DNA from: Oricola sp.
Lineage (GTDB): Bacteria > Pseudomonadota > Alphaproteobacteria > Rhizobiales > Rhizobiaceae
Direction of reading: 5' to 3'
Length of the DNA: 64,000 nucleotides
Assembly (NCBI RefSeq): GCF_022763245.1
Contig: NZ_JALEGV010000043.1
Coordinates: 124,001 to 188,000, forward strand
Below, piece by piece: positions 7,651-31,881 of this stretch (its first letter is position 1; the number at the start of each line of letters is the position of its first letter). The translations under genes and the position numbers were made by a program. The notes beneath the pieces are model-generated. The model saw only the letters and a list, made by a program, of their open reading frames with translations, ran no database searches and was not told the origin of the DNA.

Positions 7651-8037
7651 ATGACCGATCCCCAGAACACGGCTCCTTCACCCGCTCCGCGTGAGACCGA
7701 CAAATGGCTTGAAGCGGGCCCGCAAAATGCGCTCGCGATCTACATCCTCTATCTCGTCGGCTTCGTTGTCGGCATCACCGCCATCGTCGGCATCGTGATG
7801 GCCTACATCAACCGCGGCAAGGCCGGCGGCTTCGTCGAATCCCACTACACTTGGCAGATCCGGACCTTCTGGATCGGCCTGCTCTACTCCTTCATTTCAG
7901 CGCTGCTGTTCATCGTCGGGATCGGTTTCCTGCTGATGCTGGCCGTCGGCGTCTGGGTCATCGTGCGCGTCGTCAAGGGCATGATGGCGCTCAACAAGAA
8001 CGAACCGATCTCCGATCCGGCCACCTGGTGGATCTGA
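7651..8037 (+). CDS. DUF4870-like small membrane protein inside the glc operon
   Basis: A 128-residue protein with a polar N-terminus of about 25 residues and three hydrophobic segments at about 29-52, 73-92 and 91-112. The phrase FVESHYTWQIRTFWIGLL is typical of the DUF4870/Tic20-like small membrane family. Its position between glcE and glcF, with 21- and 22-base gaps, makes it part of the operon. Its function is unknown. It could help the soluble oxidase subunits sit at the membrane, but nothing in the sequence proves that. A GGAGAACCCCC leader precedes the ATG. Confidence 0.85.
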   Translation: MTDPQNTAPSPAPRETDKWLEAGPQNALAIYILYLVGFVVGITAIVGIVMAYINRGKAGGFVESHYTWQIRTFWIGLLYSFISALLFIVGIGFLLMLAVGVWVIVRVVKGMMALNKNEPISDPATWWI

Positions 8038-8059
8038 CGGTTCAGAAAAGCGAGTTGCC

Positions 8060-9403
8060 GTGCAGACCAATTTCACCACCGAGCAGTTGCGCGATCCCGG
8101 CGTCGCGGCGGCGGAGAAGATTCTGCGCACCTGCGTGCATTGCGGTTTCTGCACGGCGACCTGCCCGACCTATGTGACGCTCGGCAACGAGCTCGACAGT
8201 CCGCGCGGGCGCATCTACCTGATCAAGGACATGCTGGAAAACGACCGGCCCGCCGACAAGCAGGTCGTGACCCATATCGACAGGTGCCTGTCCTGCCTCG
8301 CCTGCATGACGACCTGCCCGTCGGGCGTGCACTACATGCATCTGGTCGATCACGCCCGCGCCCATATCGAAAAAACCTACCGCCGGCCGCTCTTCGACCG
8401 GATCACCCGCAACGTGCTGGCGCTGGTGTTGCCCTATCCGGGCCGGTTCCGCGCCTCGCTCGCCGCCGCCCGGCTCGGCCGGCCCTTCGCCGGCCTTCTG
8501 AAGGCGATCCCGCCGCTGAAACCCTTCGGCGCGATGCTCGACCTCGCGCCGAAGGCGGTCGAAAAGCCGTCGCCCTTCGCCATGCCGGGCAGCCATGCGC
8601 CCGCCACGGAGAAACGCGGCCGCGTGGCCATCCTCACCGGCTGCGCCCAGCCGGTGCTGAAGCCCGGCATCAACGAGGCGACGATCCGCCTCCTGACCCG
8701 GCTCGGCGTCGAGGTCGTCGTTCCCCAGGGCGAGGGCTGCTGCGGCGCGCTGGTCCATCACATGGGCCGCGAGGAAAAGGCGCTCGACGACGCGCGCCGC
8801 AATGTCGACGCCTGGACGCGCGAAATCGACAACGGCGGATTGGACGCCATCATCGTCACCGCTTCTGGCTGCGGCACCACCATCAAGGACTATGGCTGGA
8901 TGCTGCGCGAAGACCTCGCATATGCCGACAAGGCGGCGCGGGTGTCGCAGCTCGCCAAGGACGTGACGGAGTATCTCGCCTCCATCGAGCGGCCCGAACC
9001 GGCGCTCAAGCCGAACCTGACGGTCGCCTACCACTCCGCCTGCTCGATGCAGCACGGCCAGAAGATCACGACCGCGCCGAAAACGCTGCTGAAAGCAGCC
9101 GGGTTCAGCGTGAAGGATCCGGCCGAGGGGCATCTGTGCTGCGGGTCGGCGGGCACCTACAACATCATGCAGCCGGAGATCTCGGCGCAGCTGAAGGCGC
9201 GCAAGGTGCGCAACATCGAGGCGACGAAGCCGGACATCGTCGCCACGGGCAATATCGGCTGCATCACCCAGATCGCCACCGGCACGGACATCCCGATCCT
9301 GCACACGGTCGAACTCCTCGACTGGGCCTATGGAGGCCCGAAGCCCACAGGGGTGCCTGAGCCGCGGCCCTCGCGCCTTGACGCGCTGTTGGCGGTCGAG
9401 TAA
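8060..9403 (+). CDS. glcF: Glycolate oxidase iron-sulfur subunit GlcF
   Basis: Iron-sulfur subunit that takes electrons from the FAD subunits of glycolate oxidase. The 447-residue product has two 4Fe-4S ferredoxin motifs, CVHCGFCTATCP (residues about 31-42) and CLSCLACMTTCP (about 80-91), followed by two CCG domains with GEGCCGAL near 226 and GHLCCGSAGTY near 357. This is the full GlcF/LutA-like layout. Translation starts at a GTG with only a weak ribosome binding site, so it may depend on coupling with the upstream small membrane gene. It ends 12 bases before the convergent DUF454 gene. Confidence 0.94.
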   Translation: MQTNFTTEQLRDPGVAAAEKILRTCVHCGFCTATCPTYVTLGNELDSPRGRIYLIKDMLENDRPADKQVVTHIDRCLSCLACMTTCPSGVHYMHLVDHARAHIEKTYRRPLFDRITRNVLALVLPYPGRFRASLAAARLGRPFAGLLKAIPPLKPFGAMLDLAPKAVEKPSPFAMPGSHAPATEKRGRVAILTGCAQPVLKPGINEATIRLLTRLGVEVVVPQGEGCCGALVHHMGREEKALDDARRNVDAWTREIDNGGLDAIIVTASGCGTTIKDYGWMLREDLAYADKAARVSQLAKDVTEYLASIERPEPALKPNLTVAYHSACSMQHGQKITTAPKTLLKAAGFSVKDPAEGHLCCGSAGTYNIMQPEISAQLKARKVRNIEATKPDIVATGNIGCITQIATGTDIPILHTVELLDWAYGGPKPTGVPEPRPSRLDALLAVE

Positions 9404-9415
9404 TCGTCGGCGAAA

Positions 9416-9778
9416 TCACCGACCCGACGGTTCAGGCCGGGTGAGCACGAAGAGCGCGGCGACCGACAACACGACGATCTGGACCGACAAGACGGTCGCG
9501 TTCGCCCCGATCGCCCAGGTGACGGCCGGTGTTGCGGCCATCGTCGTCACGGCGACGGCCTTGGAGCGGCGCCCGATCGCACCTTCCATCCGCCAATCGA
9601 CGATCAGCGGGCCGAAACGCGGGTGATTGAGCAGCCACGCCTCCAGCCGGGGCGAACTGCGGGCAAAGGCGAAGGCGGCAAGCAGCAGGAAGGGCGTCGT
9701 CGGCACGAGCGGCAGCACGACGCCGGCGACAGCCGCGCCGACGGCGAGAAGACCCAGAATCATCCAGACGAGTTTCAT
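9416..9778 (-). CDS. YbaN family (DUF454) inner membrane protein
   Basis: A 120-residue protein with three hydrophobic segments. The N-terminal motif GVVLPLVPTTPFLLLAAFAF and the following arginine/histidine-rich loop (RSSPRLEAWLLNHPRFG) are the hallmark of the DUF454/YbaN family. Members are small inner membrane proteins of unknown role. It is convergent with glcF and divergent from the aldo/keto reductase gene, with 135 bases between the two starts. Nothing ties it to glycolate metabolism beyond its position. Confidence 0.88.
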   Translation of the reverse strand: MKLVWMILGLLAVGAAVAGVVLPLVPTTPFLLLAAFAFARSSPRLEAWLLNHPRFGPLIVDWRMEGAIGRRSKAVAVTTMAATPAVTWAIGANATVLSVQIVVLSVAALFVLTRPEPSGR

Positions 9779-23936: not shown

Positions 23937-25547
23937 CTAGTGTCCCCCGCCAAAGACGCCGGTCTTGACCGAGTAGTTCACGGCCAGCCCGTAATCGGGA
24001 TCGTCGTCGGAATCGACCATCAGCTGGCCGGCCCGGTTCAGGAGGCGGTGGCAGTCATGTGACAGGTGCCGCAGCACCAGCGTTTTGCCCTGTGCCTCGA
24101 ACTTGGCGGCCAGGTCCTCGATCGCCTGCAGCGCGGACTGGTCGGCGACGCGACTGTTCATGAAATCGACGATCACGGTCTGCGGGTCGGCGATCGGGTC
24201 GAACAGCTCGGCGAAACCGTCGGTCGAGCCGAAGAACAGCGGACCCTCGATCTGGTAGACCTTCGCGCCCTCCGGCGTGATGTGCGACTTGGCGTGGATG
24301 CGCGTGGCGTTGTTCCAGGCATAGGCCAGCGCCGAGACGATCACGCCGACGACGACGGCGACGGCAAGGTCGCTCATCACGGTGACGACGGTCACGAGCA
24401 CGATGACCAGTGCGTCGGTCAGCGGAATGCGCCGCATGATCTTCAGCGTCTGCCAGGCGAACGTGCCGATGACGACCATGAACATCACGCCGACCAGCGC
24501 GGCCAGCGGGATCTGCTCGATCAAGGACGAGCCGACAAGGATGAAGACGAGCAGGAACAGCGCCGCCGAAATGCCGGAGAGCCGCGTGCGCCCGCCCGAT
24601 TTCACATTGATCATCGACTGGCCGATCATGGCGCAGCCGCCCATGCCGCCGAAGAAGCCGGTCACCAGATTGGCCGTGCCCTGGGCGACGCATTCCTTCG
24701 ACGCGCCGCCACGCTTTCCGGTGATCTCGCCGACGAGGTTCAGCGTCAGCAGGCTTTCGATCAGGCCGATGGCGGCGAGGATGACGGCGTAGGGCACGAT
24801 CACCTCGAGCGTCTCGAAGGTCAGCGGCACGGTCGGGACGTGGAATTGCGGCAGGCCGCCCTCGATGGAGGCCATGTCGCCGACGCGCGGCACGTCGATG
24901 CCGAAGACGATGACGATCGCCGCGACGATCGCGATGCCGGCGAGCGGCGCGGGAAAGGCGCTGGTCAGCTTCGGCATGCCCCAGATGATCGCCATGGTCA
25001 GCGCGACGAGGCCGAGCATCACGACGAGCGGCCAGCCGCTCATCCAGTGCATCGCGCCGGTCGCGTCCGGCGTCTTGAACTGGGTGAGCTGGGCCAGGAA
25101 GATCACGATCGCCAGCCCGTTGACGAAGCCGAGCATGACCGGATGCGGCACCAGCCGGATGAACTTGCCGAGCCGCAGCACGCCCGCCAGGATCTGCAGG
25201 ATGCCCATCAGCACCACGGTCGCGAACAGATATTCGACGCCATGCTCCGCCACCAGCGCCACCATGACGACCGCCAAAGCACCCGTCGCGCCGGAAATCA
25301 TGCCCGGCCGGCCGCCGAACACGGCGGTGATCAGGCCCACCATGAACGCGGCGTAGAGGCCGACCAGCGGATGCACGCCCGCCACGAAGGCGAAGGCCAC
25401 CGCCTCCGGCACCAGCGCCAAGGCGACCGTCAGGCCGGACAGCAACTCGGTCTTCAGGGTGAGGGGATTGAGGAGGGCAAAGGCGCCCGGCTCGCGGCGG
25501 GCAAGAGGTAGCCGCCCTGCGAGCGCGGCGAGCGTCGCTCGTGTCAT
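23937..25547 (-). CDS. SulP family inorganic anion transporter with STAS domain
   Basis: Membrane transporter for inorganic anions such as sulfate or bicarbonate, 536 residues. The first 400 residues are hydrophobic with 10-12 membrane segments and SulP motifs: LTVALALVPEAVAFAFVAGV near residue 38-57, GLYAAFMVGLITAVFGGRPG near 62-81, and GFFGGMGGCAMIGQSMINV near 297-315. A cytoplasmic STAS domain follows at about 420-520 (YQIEGPLFFGSTDGFAELF, VIVDFMNSRVADQSAL). The ATG at 25547 is preferred over the longer frame because CAGGACCAAGATTAC precedes it and it begins the normal N-terminus. It is divergent from the PhnD-LuxR regulator gene (152-base gap), which probably controls it. The anion cannot be told from sequence. 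Confidence 0.93.
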   Translation of the reverse strand: MTRATLAALAGRLPLARREPGAFALLNPLTLKTELLSGLTVALALVPEAVAFAFVAGVHPLVGLYAAFMVGLITAVFGGRPGMISGATGALAVVMVALVAEHGVEYLFATVVLMGILQILAGVLRLGKFIRLVPHPVMLGFVNGLAIVIFLAQLTQFKTPDATGAMHWMSGWPLVVMLGLVALTMAIIWGMPKLTSAFPAPLAGIAIVAAIVIVFGIDVPRVGDMASIEGGLPQFHVPTVPLTFETLEVIVPYAVILAAIGLIESLLTLNLVGEITGKRGGASKECVAQGTANLVTGFFGGMGGCAMIGQSMINVKSGGRTRLSGISAALFLLVFILVGSSLIEQIPLAALVGVMFMVVIGTFAWQTLKIMRRIPLTDALVIVLVTVVTVMSDLAVAVVVGVIVSALAYAWNNATRIHAKSHITPEGAKVYQIEGPLFFGSTDGFAELFDPIADPQTVIVDFMNSRVADQSALQAIEDLAAKFEAQGKTLVLRHLSHDCHRLLNRAGQLMVDSDDDPDYGLAVNYSVKTGVFGGGH

Positions 25548-25699
25548 GTAATCTTGGTCCTGTTGTGGGTGTTTTTCTTTTGAACTGAACTGATGCTGCG
25601 ATGCAACAGAAAACTCCGCATGGCAGGGGTGAAGATTCGCGGCCGTCTGGACTTCTTCCGCCGCCGCGCGCAAAACTCGCGTCGGGAGGAAATACCGGG
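25548..25699. promoter_or_regulatory. Divergent promoter region between sulP and the PhnD-LuxR regulator
   Basis: The 152 bases between the two start codons must hold both promoters. The regulator start is preceded by GGGAGGAAATACCGGG. I saw no copy of the CCCAGGGTAT repeat found downstream of the regulator. An upstream in-frame ATG at 25601 would place the regulator start inside this region, but it lacks a comparable ribosome binding site. Confidence 0.45.
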
Positions 25700-26962
25700 A
25701 TGCAGGGACTGGCGCGAAGGGCGCTGCTCTCGATCATGGCCCTTGCCGGCCTGATCGTCGCAGCCGCCGCGCAGGACGGAATGGTCGTGTCGCGCAGGGT
25801 GGGCGTGCTTGCCTATCGTGGTGACGAAGCCGCGCTGACCCGCTGGCAACCCACCTTCGACGCGCTGGGCAAGGCCGTCGACGGTGTCCGCTTCGAGGTG
25901 CTGCCGCTTTCCCTGGACGGGGTGCGGTCGGCGCTGTCGCGTGGCGAGATCGACTATCTCTTCACCAATCCCGGCCATCTCCACCGGCTTGCCGAGGACA
26001 ACCGCCTGTTTCCCATGGTCGGGCTGCGCTCCGACCGTGAGGGCGCGCCGGTGACGGGAAACCGCTTCGGCGCCGTGATCTTCGTGCGTGCCGACAATCC
26101 CGACATCGAGACGCTCGCCGACCTGAAGGGGCGGCGCTTCGCGGCCATCGCGCCGGACGCTTTCGGCGGCTTCGAACTTGCCGCCGCGACCCTGGTGCGC
26201 AACGGCGTCAACCCGTGGCGGGACCTGGAATCGGTCTCCTTTCTCGGCTTTCCGCACGACGCCGTCATAGAGGCGGTGATGAGCGGCAAGGCCGATGCCG
26301 GCACCGTGCGCACCGGCATGCTGGAGGCCGCGGTGATGGCAGGCAAGGTGGAAGCCTACCAGCTGCGCATCCTCAATCCGTTGCGCGTGCCCGGGTTCGA
26401 GCCGGCGCTGTCGACCGAGCTCCTGCCGGAATGGACCTTGTGCGCCACCGCCAATGTGCCCGAACCCGAACGCCGGGCCGTGACGGTCGCCATGCTCGCC
26501 TTCGAGGACGACCATCCCGCCGTGGTGGCGGGTGGCTATGGCGGCTGGACTACCGTCTCGCCCGACGCGCCGGTGCGCCATCTGCTCGAAACGGTCGATG
26601 CCGCGCGGCCGGGCGACGCCTCGCCCGCCATCGCGCTGTCGGGCCTGATGATCGCGGCCGCCGGCGCCGTGCCGATCGGCATCGCCATGCTGATCTATTG
26701 GCGCGGCCGTCACGCGGCTCACACGCCGCCGGAGGCGGCAGCAGCGGGGCCTGCGGAAGACACGGCGGATGTGCGCCTGACGCCGCGCGAACTGGAGATC
26801 CTGCAACTCGTCGGCAACGGCATGACGACGAAGCAGATCGCCCGCGACCTGGGGATCAGTCCGAAAACGGTCGAGTTTCACCGCGGCCACCTGATGCGTA
26901 AATACGAGGCCAGCAACATGGCCGAGCTGGTACGCAAGGCCGGGCCTGCGCTCGCCGGCTGA
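25700..26962 (+). CDS. Membrane one-component regulator: PhnD-like sensor, TM helix, LuxR HTH
   Basis: A 420-residue protein with an unusual domain order. Residues 1-25 are a signal peptide or signal anchor (MQGLARRALLSIMALAGLIV). Residues about 32-300 are a PhnD/type 2 periplasmic-binding domain: RVGVLAYRGDEAALTRWQPT, IDYLFTNPGHLHRL, ETLADLKGRRFAAIAPDAFG, SGKADAGTVRTGMLE. One transmembrane helix lies at about 310-334, then a 25-residue linker, then a GerE/LuxR helix-turn-helix at 360-420 (LTPRELEILQLVGNGMTTKQ, IARDLGISPKTVEFHRGHLM). No kinase or receiver domain is present. The likely role is direct transmembrane control of transcription in response to an extracytoplasmic anion; the sensor half resembles that of TtrS tetrathionate kinases. 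The neighbours are a SulP transporter and a DsrE-like protein. Confidence 0.88.
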   Translation: MQGLARRALLSIMALAGLIVAAAAQDGMVVSRRVGVLAYRGDEAALTRWQPTFDALGKAVDGVRFEVLPLSLDGVRSALSRGEIDYLFTNPGHLHRLAEDNRLFPMVGLRSDREGAPVTGNRFGAVIFVRADNPDIETLADLKGRRFAAIAPDAFGGFELAAATLVRNGVNPWRDLESVSFLGFPHDAVIEAVMSGKADAGTVRTGMLEAAVMAGKVEAYQLRILNPLRVPGFEPALSTELLPEWTLCATANVPEPERRAVTVAMLAFEDDHPAVVAGGYGGWTTVSPDAPVRHLLETVDAARPGDASPAIALSGLMIAAAGAVPIGIAMLIYWRGRHAAHTPPEAAAAGPAEDTADVRLTPRELEILQLVGNGMTTKQIARDLGISPKTVEFHRGHLMRKYEASNMAELVRKAGPALAG

Positions 26963-26980: not shown

Positions 26981-27002
26981 CCCAGGGTATACCCCAGGGT
27001 AT
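26981..27002. promoter_or_regulatory. Direct repeat CCCAGGGTAT, candidate operator
   Basis: CCCAGGGTAT occurs at 26981-26990 and again at 26993-27002, a 12-base period, about 100 bases before the dsrE-like gene and just after the regulator stop. The extended core GGTATACC is also partly palindromic. The site could bind the LuxR domain of the upstream gene product, which is inference from position. Confidence 0.45.
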
Positions 27003-27101
27003 TCAGATGGTCCGCCCAGCTAGGCAGCAGCGGGGTTTTCCGACGAGCATGACGGCAATGCCGCCAGGAGGGTGCGGCAGAGCCCGACAGGAGGAAAACA
27101 C

Positions 27102-27566
27102 ATGAAAATCTTCGCAAGACTGGCCGTCATCATGGCCTCGCTCGCCGTCGCCGCCGCATCCCTGACGGGGGCCGCGAGCGCCAATGAGCGCTACGGCCAG
27201 CAGAAGGTCGTCTACCATATCAATTACAAGGGCGGCGAAGACGACGCGGCCTATCGCGGCGCGCTGCGCAACATCCAGAACCACATCAACGCGGTCGGCA
27301 AGGACCAGATGGAGATCAAGGTCGTCCTGCACGGAAACGGCGTCGGCCTGCTTCAGGACGCCAAGACCAACGAGAAGCTGCAGATGGACGTCACCAGCCT
27401 GAAGACGCAGAACGTCGTCTTCAACGTCTGCAACAACACGCTGGTCGGCCGCAAGATCGACTACCAGAACGATCTCTTCGAGGTGTTCGAAGACGAGATC
27501 GTGCCCTCCGGCGTCGCGGAACTGAGCCGTCTGCAGATGATGGGATACACCTACATCAAGCCCTGA
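27102..27566 (+). CDS. Secreted DsrE/DsrF-like protein
   Basis: A 154-residue protein with a signal peptide (MKIFARLAVIMASLAVAAAS, cut near ASA-N at 27). The mature part has the DsrE-like flavodoxin-type fold: QKVVYHINYKGG at 34-45, IKVVLHGNGVGLL at 72-84 and VVFNVCNNTLVGRKI at 105-119. The single cysteine, C110, sits where intracellular DsrE/TusD proteins carry their sulfur-transfer cysteine, so sulfur or thiol handling in the periplasm is plausible but unproven. GACAGGAGGAAAACAC precedes the ATG. It follows the PhnD-LuxR regulator on the same strand and has its own terminator. Confidence 0.87.
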   Translation: MKIFARLAVIMASLAVAAASLTGAASANERYGQQKVVYHINYKGGEDDAAYRGALRNIQNHINAVGKDQMEIKVVLHGNGVGLLQDAKTNEKLQMDVTSLKTQNVVFNVCNNTLVGRKIDYQNDLFEVFEDEIVPSGVAELSRLQMMGYTYIKP

Positions 27567-27623: not shown

Positions 27624-28679
27624 CTAGAGGCGCTGACCGCTGGCCGCGTCGAACAGGTGAAGCCGCTCGCGGTCGAAGATCAGCCCCAGCCGGTCGGAGA
27701 GCGGCCCGCCGGAGTGCAGCGACACGGCAAGCCGCGCCTCGCCGACATGGCCGTGCACGAGACGGCCGGACCCCAGTTCCTCGACATAGCTGACCGTCAG
27801 TTCGAGATCCGGCGTCTCGCCCGTTTCGGAGAGGCGGATGTCCTCGGCACGCACGCCGAGCGTCAGCGGACCCTCCGGCGCGCCGTGGCCGTTGGTCAGC
27901 GTCACCGTCTGGTCGCCGATGACGAGGTTGCCGTTTTCGCCGCGCGCCGTGATCAGGTTCATGGCCGGCGACCCGATGAAGCCCGCCACGAAGGCGGATT
28001 GCGGCATGCGGTAGACGTCCAGCGGGCTGCCGATCTGCTCAATGCGGCCGGCGTTCAGAACGACGATGCGGTCGGCCATGGTCATGGCTTCGAGCTGGTC
28101 GTGGGTGACGTAGATCGACGTCGTGCCGAGCCGTTTCTGCAACTGCTTGATCTCGCCGCGCATGTCGACGCGCAGCTTGGCGTCGAGATTGGAGAGCGGT
28201 TCGTCGAACAGGAAGGCCGCCGGCTCGCGCACGATGGCGCGGCCCATGGCGACGCGCTGGCGCTGCCCGCCGGAAAGCTGCTTCGGCTTGCGGTCGAGGT
28301 ATTCTTCCAGCCGCAGGATGGCGGCGGCCTCGGCGACGCGCTCGGCGATCTCGGGCTTGTTCATGCCGCGGTTCTTCAGCCCGTAAGCCATGTTGTTGCG
28401 CACCGACATGTGCGGGTAGAGCGCGTAGTTCTGGAACACCATGGCGATGTCGCGGTCGGCGGGATCGACATGGTTGATGATCCGGTCGCCGATGCCGATC
28501 TCGCCCTCGGTGATCGTCTCCAGCCCCGCGACCATGCGCAGGAGCGTGGACTTGCCGCAGCCCGACGGTCCGACGAGGACGATGAACTCGCCGGCGCGGA
28601 TGTTGACGGACACGTCGTTCACGGCGCGCAGGCCGCTCTGGTATTCCTTGCTTACGCTGTCGATGTTCACATGCGCCAT
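27624..28679 (-). CDS. ugpC: Glycerol-3-phosphate ABC transporter ATP-binding protein
   Basis: ATPase of the Ugp importer, 351 residues. It has Walker [10 protein letters not shown] at 38-46, the signature [14 protein letters not shown] near 134-147, Walker [16 protein letters not shown] near 154-168, the H-loop VTHDQLEAM, and a C-terminal TOBE domain from about 235 (RAEDIRLSE at about 275). This is the MalK/UgpC type, which drives both permease subunits. It is the last gene of ugpB-ugpA-ugpE-ugpC, eight bases-scale gaps apart, the usual order. MalK-type ATPases of other sugar transporters look similar; the operon decides the name. Confidence 0.93.
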
Positions 28680-28686
28680 GGGTGTC

Positions 28687-29598
28687 TCACTTGTCGCTTT
28701 CGGTCAGGCCCTTGACGAACCAGCTCTGGAAGAAGATCACGATCGCGACCGGCGGCAGCACCGCCAGGATCGCCAGAAGGTTGGAGCGTCCGAATTCGGG
28801 GATGTGGTTGCCTTCCAGGCCCTGCGTGATCTGCTTGATGCCCTGAACGAGGGTGAACTTGCCCTCTTCGGTGACGATCATCGTCGGCCACAGATACTGG
28901 TTCCAGCCATAGACGAACATGATGATGAAGATCGCCGCGATCATCGTGCGCGAGAGCGGGATCAGGATGTCGATGAAGAACTTCACCGGCCCCGCGCCGT
29001 CGATGCGCGCCGCTTCAACCAATTCGTCGGGCACCGACATGAAGAACTGCCGGAAGAAGAAGGTCGCCGTCGCCGACGCGATCAGCGGCACGATCAGGCC
29101 GGTATAGGTGTTGAGCAGCCCGAGCTTCTGCGTGACCTCGTAGGAGGGCACGATGCGCACCTCCAGCGGCAGCAGCAGCGTGGTGAAGATCAGCCAGAAG
29201 GCGAGCGTCGCGAAGCGCATCCGGAAATAGACGATCGCATAAGCCGCGCACATCGAGATGACGATCTTGCCGATCGCGAAGCCGAGGCCGAGGATCAGCG
29301 AATTCATGAACATGGTCAGCCCGGAATTGCTGCCCGAAAAGCTCATCGAGCCGAACAGCGCCTTGTCCAGGTTCGAGCCGAACTGGTCGCCGATCACCAG
29401 CGACGGGCCGTGCTTCATGATCTCGGTGTCGGCGATGGTGCTCATCTGCAGCAGCATCGCGATCGGCGCCATCATGAACAGCGCGCCGAGGATCAGGATC
29501 GTGTGGTCGAGGACGGCGCCCCAGCGAAAGCGCCTTTGCGCCGGTCTGGCTGCGGCGGCCGGGGCGGCCACGGGGTGTGAGGACGATATCTCTGCCAT
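28687..29598 (-). CDS. ugpE: Glycerol-3-phosphate ABC transporter permease UgpE
   Basis: Inner membrane permease of the MalG type, 303 residues with six membrane segments. The ATPase-contact EAA loop is [20 protein letters not shown] (about 194-213), followed by [18 protein letters not shown]. The N-terminus has an alanine-rich cytoplasmic tail of about 25 residues. The C-terminus [15 protein letters not shown] is close to the ...KGLT-GAVKG ending of MalG-like permeases. It is 7 bases from ugpC and 13 from ugpA, so the operon is tight. Confidence 0.93.
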
Positions 29599-29611
29599 GG
29601 CGTTCGCTCGC

Positions 29612-30493
29612 TCAGGAATAGTGGATGCGCCGCTCGATCAGGCGGAACTGGAAGATCGTGAGAATGAGGACCAGCACCATCAGCACGACGGATTGCGCCG
29701 ACGAACCGCCGATGTCCTGGCCGCGGAACCCGTCGAGATAGACCTTGTAGACAAGGGTGATCGGGTTATCGCCGACATTGTTGCGCAGGATCGTGTCGAT
29801 CATCCCGAACGTGTCGAACAGCGAATAGGTGATGTTGATGATCAGCAGGAAGAAGCCGGTCGGCGCGAGCAGCGGAAACGTGACCGTGAAGAAACGCCGC
29901 AGGCCCGACTTGCAGTCGATCAGGGACGCCTCGCGGATGGCGCGCGGAATGCTCTGAAGGCCGGACAGGAAGAAGATGAAATTGACCGGGATCTGCTTCC
30001 AGACCGACGCGACCACCATCGCGAAGGCGGTGTCGAAATAGTCGAGCCGCACCCGCAGCGACCAGCCGAACAGCGCGAAGAACTCGGTGAGCGGGCCCCA
30101 GCGCTGGTTGAAAACGATCAGCGTGATGAAGCCGGCCACCGGCGGCGCCACGGCATAGACCCACATCAGAAGCGTCCGGTAGCTCCGGGCGCCGCGGATC
30201 ACGCCGTCGGCCTTGACCGCGAGCAGAAGCGCGATGGCCAGCGAGAAGAAGGTGACGAGCACGGTGAAGATCACCGTGAACCAGGCCGTCTTGAGGTATT
30301 CGCTGCTGCGGAAGAGGCGCAGATAGTTCTCCAGGCCGACGAAGGTCGAGCCGAAGCCGAACGGGTCCTCCAGGTAGAAGGACGACCGCAGCGCCTGCAG
30401 GGCGGGCCAGTAGAAGAACAGCGTGATGATCGAAAGCTGCGGCAGGAGCAGCAGGACCGGCAGCCACCGTGTCGAGAATGCAGCGCGTTTCAA
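29612..30493 (-). CDS. ugpA: Glycerol-3-phosphate ABC transporter permease UgpA
   Basis: The MalF-type permease partner, 293 residues with six membrane segments. The EAA loop reads REASLIDCKSGLRRFFTVTF near 185-204, and WKQIPVNFIFFLSGLQSIPR just before it is typical of UgpA. The start at 30493 is a TTG, giving KRAAFSTRWLPVLLLLPQLS; no in-frame ATG nearby gives the conserved N-terminus. GCGAGG lies seven bases upstream as a ribosome binding site. The loop residue Cys in place of the usual Asp/Glu-Gly (IDCKSG) is a small deviation from the EAA consensus. Confidence 0.9.
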   Translation of the reverse strand: MKRAAFSTRWLPVLLLLPQLSIITLFFYWPALQALRSSFYLEDPFGFGSTFVGLENYLRLFRSSEYLKTAWFTVIFTVLVTFFSLAIALLLAVKADGVIRGARSYRTLLMWVYAVAPPVAGFITLIVFNQRWGPLTEFFALFGWSLRVRLDYFDTAFAMVVASVWKQIPVNFIFFLSGLQSIPRAIREASLIDCKSGLRRFFTVTFPLLAPTGFFLLIINITYSLFDTFGMIDTILRNNVGDNPITLVYKVYLDGFRGQDIGGSSAQSVVLMVLVLILTIFQFRLIERRIHYS

Positions 30494-30579
30494 GGGAGGG
30501 CCTCGCTTGGCGGAAGCCGGCGGCCGCGAAGGGCGGCCGCCGGCAGGGGTTCGCGAAAGGCGATCGCTGACGCGGTCGC

Positions 30580-31881
30580 TTAGTTGAGCGTCTTGGAGAA
30601 GCGGCCCAGAAGCTCGTTGCCTTCCTTCTCGATGGCGGCGAGCGCGTCATCGATGGTGGTTTCACCGTTCAGGAAGCGGGCGAGTTCGCGGTTCTCGACG
30701 TCGCGGATCTGGACGTAGAAGCCCATGCGGTAGCCGCGGGTGTTCTCGCCGGCGCGCAGCGACAGCTGCTTGACGCCCGTTTCGGCGGCCGGGAAACGCT
30801 CGTAGTGACCGTCCTGCTTGGCCAGTTCGTAGGCGGCCTGCGTGATCGGCACATAGCCGGTCTCGCGGTGCCACATGTACTGGACTTCCGGCGAGGTCAG
30901 ATATTCGAAGAACTTCGCGGTGGCCGCGTTTTCCTCGTCCGGATGACCCGCCATGGCAAACAGCGAAGCGCCGCCGATGAAGGTCTGGTAGCCTTCGCCG
31001 CCGGTGATCGAGGACCAGTAGGGCAGCTCGGTGTTCGACCACTCGAACGGCAGGTCGAGAGCGGTCAGGCCGCCGAAGTCACCCGAAGAGCCGATATACA
31101 TGGCGGCCTTCTGGTCCACGAACTGGGCCTTGTTGTCGTCCCAGCCGGTGCCGAAGAAGCCGAACAGGCCCTCGTCGAGCCAGCCCTTCACCTTGGTGAA
31201 GTGCATCTTCATTTCCGGCGAGTTGATGAGGATCTTGGTGCCCTCGGCGCCCTTGTAGCCATTGTCGTTGGAGGCGAACGGCAGGTTGTGGCGCGAATGG
31301 AAGTTCTCGACGAATTCCCACGGCAGGTGGGTCTGCACGAGCGGGATGTAGCCGGCTTCCTTCAGCTTCGGCGCGATCTGCTCGAACTCCTCATAGGTCT
31401 TCGGAGCTTCGACGCCGGCCTTCTTGAAGGCGTCGACATTGTAGTAGGTGACCGGCGAGGAGGAGTTGAACGGCATGCCGATCATCTTGCCGTCGGCGTC
31501 GGCGTAGAAATAGCGCACGCCCGGGATGTAGTCCTCGATGTCGAAGTTCACGCCGTTGGCCAGCAGGAGGTCCTGGACCGGAACGGCCGCGCCCTTGGCG
31601 CCGATGACGGTCGCCGCACCGGCGTCGAAGACCTGCACGATGTTCGGCTGTTCGCCGGCACGGAAGGCGGCGATGGCGGCGGTCAGGGTTTCTTCATAGG
31701 AGCCCTTGAAGACCGGGGTGATGGTGTATTCGTCCTGGCTTTCGTTGAAGCCTTCGGCGATCTGGTTGACGACGTCACCGAGATGGCCGCCCATGCCGTG
31801 CCACCATTCGATCTGGGTCTCGGCAGCGGCAAGCGCGGTCGAGGACAGCAGGATGCCTGCTGCGAGCAATTGACGGATCAT
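30580..31881 (-). CDS. ugpB: sn-glycerol-3-phosphate-binding periplasmic protein
   Basis: Periplasmic receptor of the Ugp importer, 433 residues with a signal peptide (MIRQLLAAGILLSSTALAAA, cut near residue 20). The family motifs are IEWWHGMGGHLGDVVNQIAE near 24-43, FKGSYEETLTAAIAAFRAG near 58-76, FNSSSPVTYYN near 139-149 and GGASLFAMAGHP near 303-314; the W-H-G-M-G segment is typical of glycerol-phosphate binders. The start has a strong CAGGAGGGAATC ribosome binding site. It is the first gene of ugpBAEC. In many bacteria this operon is induced by phosphate starvation through PhoB; a possible Pho box lies upstream. Confidence 0.94.
   Translation of the reverse strand: MIRQLLAAGILLSSTALAAAETQIEWWHGMGGHLGDVVNQIAEGFNESQDEYTITPVFKGSYEETLTAAIAAFRAGEQPNIVQVFDAGAATVIGAKGAAVPVQDLLLANGVNFDIEDYIPGVRYFYADADGKMIGMPFNSSSPVTYYNVDAFKKAGVEAPKTYEEFEQIAPKLKEAGYIPLVQTHLPWEFVENFHSRHNLPFASNDNGYKGAEGTKILINSPEMKMHFTKVKGWLDEGLFGFFGTGWDDNKAQFVDQKAAMYIGSSGDFGGLTALDLPFEWSNTELPYWSSITGGEGYQTFIGGASLFAMAGHPDEENAATAKFFEYLTSPEVQYMWHRETGYVPITQAAYELAKQDGHYERFPAAETGVKQLSLRAGENTRGYRMGFYVQIRDVENRELARFLNGETTIDDALAAIEKEGNELLGRFSKTLN

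Follow-up and report, generated by a model that had tools for sequence, protein, structure and literature searches.

A kinase-free, predicted membrane-anchored relative of TtrS/TtrR-type sensors with a candidate operator ahead of a neighbouring dsrE gene

TtrS is described as sensing tetrathionate, likely through its PhnD-like domain, and ThsS as sensing thiosulfate, in the excerpt of PMC5408782 considered here. TtrS/TtrR and ThsS/ThsR share this PhnD-like sensor domain with a protein encoded in the 64,000-nucleotide stretch of Oricola sp. DNA that was analysed (the window; contig NZ_JALEGV010000043.1, positions 124,001 to 188,000), but in the latter sensor and output form one protein, kinase and receiver are absent, and the neighbour is dsrE instead of a tetrathionate or thiosulfate reductase gene. 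The best NCBIfam match of the window protein is the sensor half of TtrS (NF040750), with residues 33-272 aligning on profile positions 8-243 at 140.7 bits, as corresponds to the presence of the PhnD-like half; the score is well below the 750-bit cut-off, HisKA and HATPase_c are missing, and neither a response regulator nor a tetrathionate reductase gene occurs among the window neighbours scanned (SulP, DsrE, YkuD, UgpC, UgpB and one open reading frame without a match). Having no kinase domain, the protein is not a TtrS kinase. In the TtrS-like relatives analysed, the GerE output resides in a partner regulator, the neighbours are related to sulfur and, in some, the same palindrome is found.

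ToxR and CadC also combine a periplasmic sensor, one membrane helix and a cytoplasmic DNA-binding domain without any phosphoacceptor, their DNA-binding domain being N-terminal, as the preliminary description had stated, according to a review that also counts TfoS among the ToxR-family regulators of this layout (PMC5936718). In the window protein this order is reversed, the sensor is different, and a GerE domain replaces the winged helix; by analogy it would work like CadC, but it is not a ToxR-family member, since both domain order and DNA-binding fold differ. Contrary to that placement, TfoS of Vibrio may have an N-terminal outer sensor, a membrane helix and a C-terminal AraC-type DNA-binding domain, a layout that would make it a precedent for the domain order of the window protein, with a different sensor and an AraC-type output. 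NarL/FixJ-type response regulators have the GerE domain in common with it (Pfam PF00196, residues 360-414, 71 bits against a cut-off of 23.5), whereas their receiver is absent. The two-lobed fold of the sensor domain is shared with the PhnD and PtxB substrate-binding proteins (41.4 bits for PhnD, TIGR03431, against a cut-off of 261.1). PtxB, ArrX, AioX and PhnD serve transporters or separate kinases and, unlike the window protein, carry neither a membrane helix nor a DNA-binding domain as a fused part. Among the open-licence papers listed in literature searches, titles and abstract openings contained no account of the fused protein or of its tie to DsrE. The features of the locus are as follows.

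25685..25689, + strand: GGAGG ribosome-binding site of the regulator gene (seen in sequence)
25700..26962, + strand: membrane one-component regulator, 420 aa, with PhnD/TtrS-type domain, membrane helix and GerE/LuxR domain (Pfam, AlphaFold2)
25703..25771, + strand: N-terminal hydrophobic helix, residues 2-24, predicted signal sequence or anchor (hydropathy, AlphaFold2)
25787..26605, + strand: type 2 periplasmic-binding domain, residues 30-302
26624..26716, + strand: single predicted membrane helix, residues 309-339 (hydropathy, AlphaFold2)
26717..26770, + strand: flexible linker, predicted cytoplasmic, residues 340-357, pLDDT <50 at 340-354 (AlphaFold2)
26777..26941, + strand: GerE/LuxR helix-turn-helix domain, residues 360-414 (Pfam)
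26981..26998, no strand: predicted operator CCCAGGGTATACCCCAGG, near-perfect palindrome, 18 bp (motif finding, held-out tests, genome search)
27090..27094, + strand: GGAGG ribosome-binding site of dsrE (seen in sequence)
27102..27566, + strand: predicted target gene, DsrE family, 154 aa, hydrophobic leader by eye, predicted exported (Pfam)

Architecture and distribution of the fused protein

The sensor reading frame is open from an ATG at 25601, and its well-placed start is the ATG at 25700, 10 bases downstream of the GGAGG at 25685-25689, which with a stop ending at 26962 gives 420 residues. Pfam detects PF12974 (Phosphonate-bd) at residues 35-288 with 133 bits against a cut-off of 27, and no HisKA, HATPase_c, HAMP or Response_reg at E 0.001. 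The AlphaFold2 model (mean pLDDT 92.1, pTM 0.70) shows, in this order, a helix at residues 2-24, a two-lobed domain at ~30-302, a helix at 309-339, disorder at 340-354 and a DNA-binding fold. These results are in agreement with the preliminary description, which had read from the letters a signal sequence, a PhnD-type domain, one membrane helix and a LuxR helix-turn-helix, with neither kinase nor HAMP nor receiver, and had proposed a structure prediction as a check; helix 309-339 does separate the two domains in the model, the topology being a predicted one.

An alignment of the window protein with 98 of the 120 listed proteins of the search given below also bears on this topology. A linker stretch with mean hydropathy >=1.6 over 19 residues is present in 98 of the 99 sequences, and the eight residues that follow it contain on average 2.6 Arg/Lys against 0.2 Asp/Glu, so that the C-terminus is predicted to be cytoplasmic. 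An N-terminal hydrophobic stretch exceeds the same limit in only 67/99, start sites being possibly wrong in the rest. We take the protein to be a membrane-anchored one-component regulator that unites sensor, predicted helix and DNA-binding domain in a single polypeptide and has no phosphoacceptor.

The search for further periplasmic-binding plus GerE proteins lacking a kinase, also suggested at the outset, revealed a family. A protein search in which only the 7997 candidates with most words in common were scored gave 144 matches, and each of the 120 listed has both PF12974 and PF00196 according to precomputed domain assignments. In a species-genome scan, of which the best 80 of 284 loci were kept, 62 are fused, understood as one open reading frame aligning beyond residue 400 of the window protein, and 18 are unfused; three fused proteins were Pfam-scanned (window, L022, L113), and the fused loci are not all independent, L068 and L069 being the same match and L014 and L015 close kin. 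Because the fusion recurs in these 62 loci of other genomes, the reading of two separate proteins joined by a sequencing error is ruled out. By record titles, and with genus names assigned to the classes to which we take them to belong, fused loci are alphaproteobacterial with the single exception of L068, an unverified "Flavobacteriia" bin whose match coordinates are identical to those of the Roseobacter bin L069, and among the unfused ones are alpha-, beta- and gammaproteobacteria. Among the matches listed for 150 genomes of the window's order, four genomes contain a full-length fused match (G000, G022, G046, G057) and 11 others kinase-length matches.

The palindrome and the genes around the sensor

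De novo motif discovery in the region where the sensor gene ends yielded a palindrome, CCTAGGGTATACCCTAGG, with an EM score of 527.6 against 110-153 for 12 shuffled sets. The window copy at 26981-26998 begins 121 bases upstream of the dsrE start. At >=12 bits the palindrome is found in 58 of 63 loci (the 62 fused ones and the window) against 11 of 2364 control windows, with a matrix trained mostly on those same loci; the exceptions are L024, L027, L030, L035 and L052. In separate held-out tests, the matrix derived from the window's clade (16 loci) recovers 42/47 sites in the other clade, and that derived from the other clade recovers 16/16 in the window's, in both cases above the 99.5% null. 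Site location ranges from within the last codons of the sensor to ~100 bases beyond, positions being approximate and offsets differing by 3 between window and loci because the stop codon was counted as in-gene for the former and not for the latter. A second, weaker palindrome (>=3 bits, within 95 bases) appears in 22 of the 58 loci, in 12 of them at offset 33-35; L036, L038, L055 and L061 are among those carrying it 33-35 bases after the start of the first, possibly as a tandem site. As for an autoregulatory copy, none reaches 12 bits upstream of the sensor, the window having the one match.

Within the host genome (5.63 Mb) the pattern occurs without mismatch at one place, the window site, and with two mismatches at one other, the reversed control pattern occurring at one place. 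Among 23 genomes hand-picked from the fused loci, 15 have a match at <=1 mismatch and eight have none with this strict pattern; these matches amount to 17 distinct places, of which 13 lie at the sensor gene and four elsewhere by coordinate arithmetic, against two places for the reversed control. By these counts, with the palindrome nearly unique in the host genome, the regulator appears close to dedicated to its neighbour, with a regulon that would consist essentially of one operon.

The palindrome could also form a 7-bp stem with a 4-base loop, as would suit an RNA hairpin or terminator in place of a DNA operator. Considering that (i) among 45 distinct sites the 73 departures from the consensus pair comprise 49 that break the pair, 19 G-U and just five compensated, (ii) both terminator-like predictions fall elsewhere, on the - strand, (iii) the RNA fold of the window is unremarkable (z -1.6, 14/200 shuffles being as good), and (iv) the position shifts between loci as indicated above, the RNA reading was rejected on the first three of these grounds and is extremely improbable. 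Judged by the compared sites, the palindrome is conserved as a sequence and not as an RNA structure.

In at least 53 of the 62 fused loci, the 2.5 kb downstream of the sensor include a DsrE-family gene, DsrE counts being lower bounds because some loci stop soon after the sensor (in L029, L039 and L043, before 2.1 kb). Twelve of the 62 contain a ModA/CysP-like binding-protein gene, six together with DsrE and six in its place, and three contain neither (L030, L035, L045); in L030 and L045 the sequence ends within 0.5 kb, whereas L035 is not at a contig end. Cys110 of the window DsrE is kept in 49 of 51 aligned sequences. Some DsrE matches in relatives are just 27-30% identical to the window protein, and the DsrE-like protein of L033 has no Pfam match. 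The ModA/CysP-like protein at L019:11408-12370, and those of L021, L028, L029, L034, L039 and L043, stand as candidate alternative or extra targets behind the same palindrome, and the four such sequences inspected (L019, L021, L056, L064) show a CxxC-containing motif.

Other neighbours are less constant. A SulP-family anion transporter gene (PF00916 + STAS; 23937-25547, - strand) is divergent from the window sensor; SulP was rejected as the main partner, as genes 71-89% identical are next to the module in just the close relatives L009-L012, that of L012 being on its far side, those of L014 and L015 are ~5.5 kb away, and L017, L019 and L033 give weak matches (24-28%). Downstream of the module in the window, Ugp-like ABC transporter genes occupy 27624-31881 (- strand), with UgpC above its NCBIfam cut-off and UgpB below. 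Chemotaxis-receptor-like genes, recognised by eye, are placed directly upstream of the sensor in L021 (8105-9850), L025 (8406-9755) and L033 (7267-9777).

Predicted mechanism and ligand

Taken together, we consider it probable that the locus is a TtrSR/ThsSR-like system reduced to a single membrane-anchored regulator of dsrE, whose outer domain likely binds a sulfur oxyanion and whose LuxR-type domain would then bind 26981-26998, with no kinase or phosphate relay involved. Binding of the oxyanion would close the two lobes, lobe closure would shift the membrane helices of a dimer, and helix movement would bring two GerE domains onto the two half-sites of the palindrome, by which dsrE would be controlled directly, without a phosphorelay. 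The effect on dsrE is likely activation, in line with GerE-domain proteins of the NarL/FixJ type mostly being activators. That the protein is instead a repressor, or is released from the membrane by proteolysis rather than acting as an anchored activator, has a low probability in our estimate, this habit of the NarL/FixJ type speaking against it, although the promoter search found no sigma-70-like promoter by which the palindrome could be placed relative to the transcription start.

The signal is likely a sulfur oxyanion, for instance thiosulfate or tetrathionate, owing to the ligands of TtrS and ThsS, to the sox genes of the host (SoxX, SoxY, SoxA, SoxB and SoxC, all above NCBIfam cut-offs) and to the sulfur-related neighbours of the relatives, with flavocytochrome c sulfide dehydrogenase (L017) and SoxYZ near the module. 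The host genes form a cluster at L124, on contig C12 (SoxC, SoxB, SoxA, SoxY, SoxX), and in L017 the flavocytochrome flavoprotein gene (7874-9543, - strand) and a small cytochrome gene are oriented divergently to the gene of the fused sensor. The solved fold neighbours of the sensor domain bind phosphite, arsenate, phosphonates and other anions, the nearest being PtxB (phosphite), ArrX (arsenate) and PhnD (phosphonate), and the same anatomy might thus serve a non-sulfur anion (phosphite, phosphonate, phosphate or arsenate). This we regard as rather unlikely, given that the NCBIfam scores put the protein much nearer to TtrS (140.7 bits) than to PhnD (41.4 bits) and that the relatives' neighbours include DsrE, SoxYZ, flavocytochrome c sulfide dehydrogenase and molybdate/sulfate/thiosulfate-binding-like proteins. 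A comparably small chance is assigned to the outer domain reading a soluble partner, for example the adjacent ModA/CysP-like protein, in place of the signal itself: AioX and ArrX, which are soluble partners of sensor kinases, are among its fold neighbours, and a binding-protein gene follows the sensor in the 12 fused loci mentioned above. Nonetheless, 50 of the 62 fused loci, and the window, have no binding-protein-cluster gene in the next 2.5 kb (some loci ending earlier), and T89-G92, A154, G156-G157 and R204 are invariant across the 99 aligned sequences, as expected of a putative ligand site.

Two-component twins and the origin of the fusion

Of the 31 kinase rows in the sensor tree, 15 were scanned with Pfam and all 15 contain HisKA, HATPase_c and PF12974. 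A sensor domain of this kind adjoins a DsrE or binding-protein gene in eight loci (L047, L056, L059, L064, L078, L098, L102, L104), with kinase domains confirmed by Pfam in seven, the sensor of L078 being cut by the contig end; the next gene encodes a Response_reg-GerE regulator in L047, L064, L098, L102 and L104. A copy of the palindrome precedes the target gene in L056, L059, L078 (where there are two) and L098; in L047 and L064 the preceding copy is weaker, and the matrix scan detected none in L102, L104 and L105, kinase loci with a DsrE gene, L104 having a related inverted repeat. L105 combines SoxYZ with a DsrE-like gene, and SoxY adjoins L047. Matches of >=12 bits also occur away from DsrE and binding-protein genes, in L047, L053, L060, L082, L084, L107 and L108. 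Near the end of the regulator gene, the tetrathionate reductase loci L109 and L110 exhibit the inverted repeat TTAGGGG-N4-CCCC(C)TAA, possibly a TtrR operator related to the palindrome of the window.

An operator and a target common to a phosphorelay and to a kinase-free form are the surprising part of the analysis. The preliminary description had viewed the protein as standalone and had noted neither the palindrome nor the adjacent predicted target nor these two-component twins; that view falls, while its architecture, predicted topology, absence of a kinase and kinship with TtrS stand.

In a tree of 95 sensor domains, one branch with support 99/97 parts 64 fused from the 31 kinase rows (the 18 unfused kept loci and 13 fetched later), and the kinase rows form one side of a branch both in trees without an outgroup and in the outgroup-rooted tree. 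The sole outgroup used, the host's own PhnD-like protein L001, has a very long branch (9.7) and joins inside the fused rows, which would then require two changes, an attachment that would make the kinase form the younger; this one outgroup tried lends no support to a kinase-to-fusion direction. A GerE tree of 62 columns does not resolve the branching order. The kinase form is spread over more taxa, which suggests that it is the older. We infer one merger of the sensor of a TtrSR/ThsSR-like system with the output domain belonging to its response regulator, operator and target being kept. The full scenario, in which a two-component system collapsed once into a kinase-free membrane regulator by joining a TtrS-like sensor to the output domain of its own regulator while retaining operator and target, a phosphorelay and direct transmembrane contact thus acting on one promoter in different lineages, is given slightly less than an even chance.

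Regarding its meaning, the locus would represent a compact, apparently near single-target module of one sensor, one operator and one gene. Because it has natural two-component twins, the contribution of kinase and receiver to signalling can be probed by swaps at the same promoter. The regulator might moreover serve as a one-gene biosensor for sulfur oxyanions, and the module offers a starting point for learning what exported DsrE proteins do.
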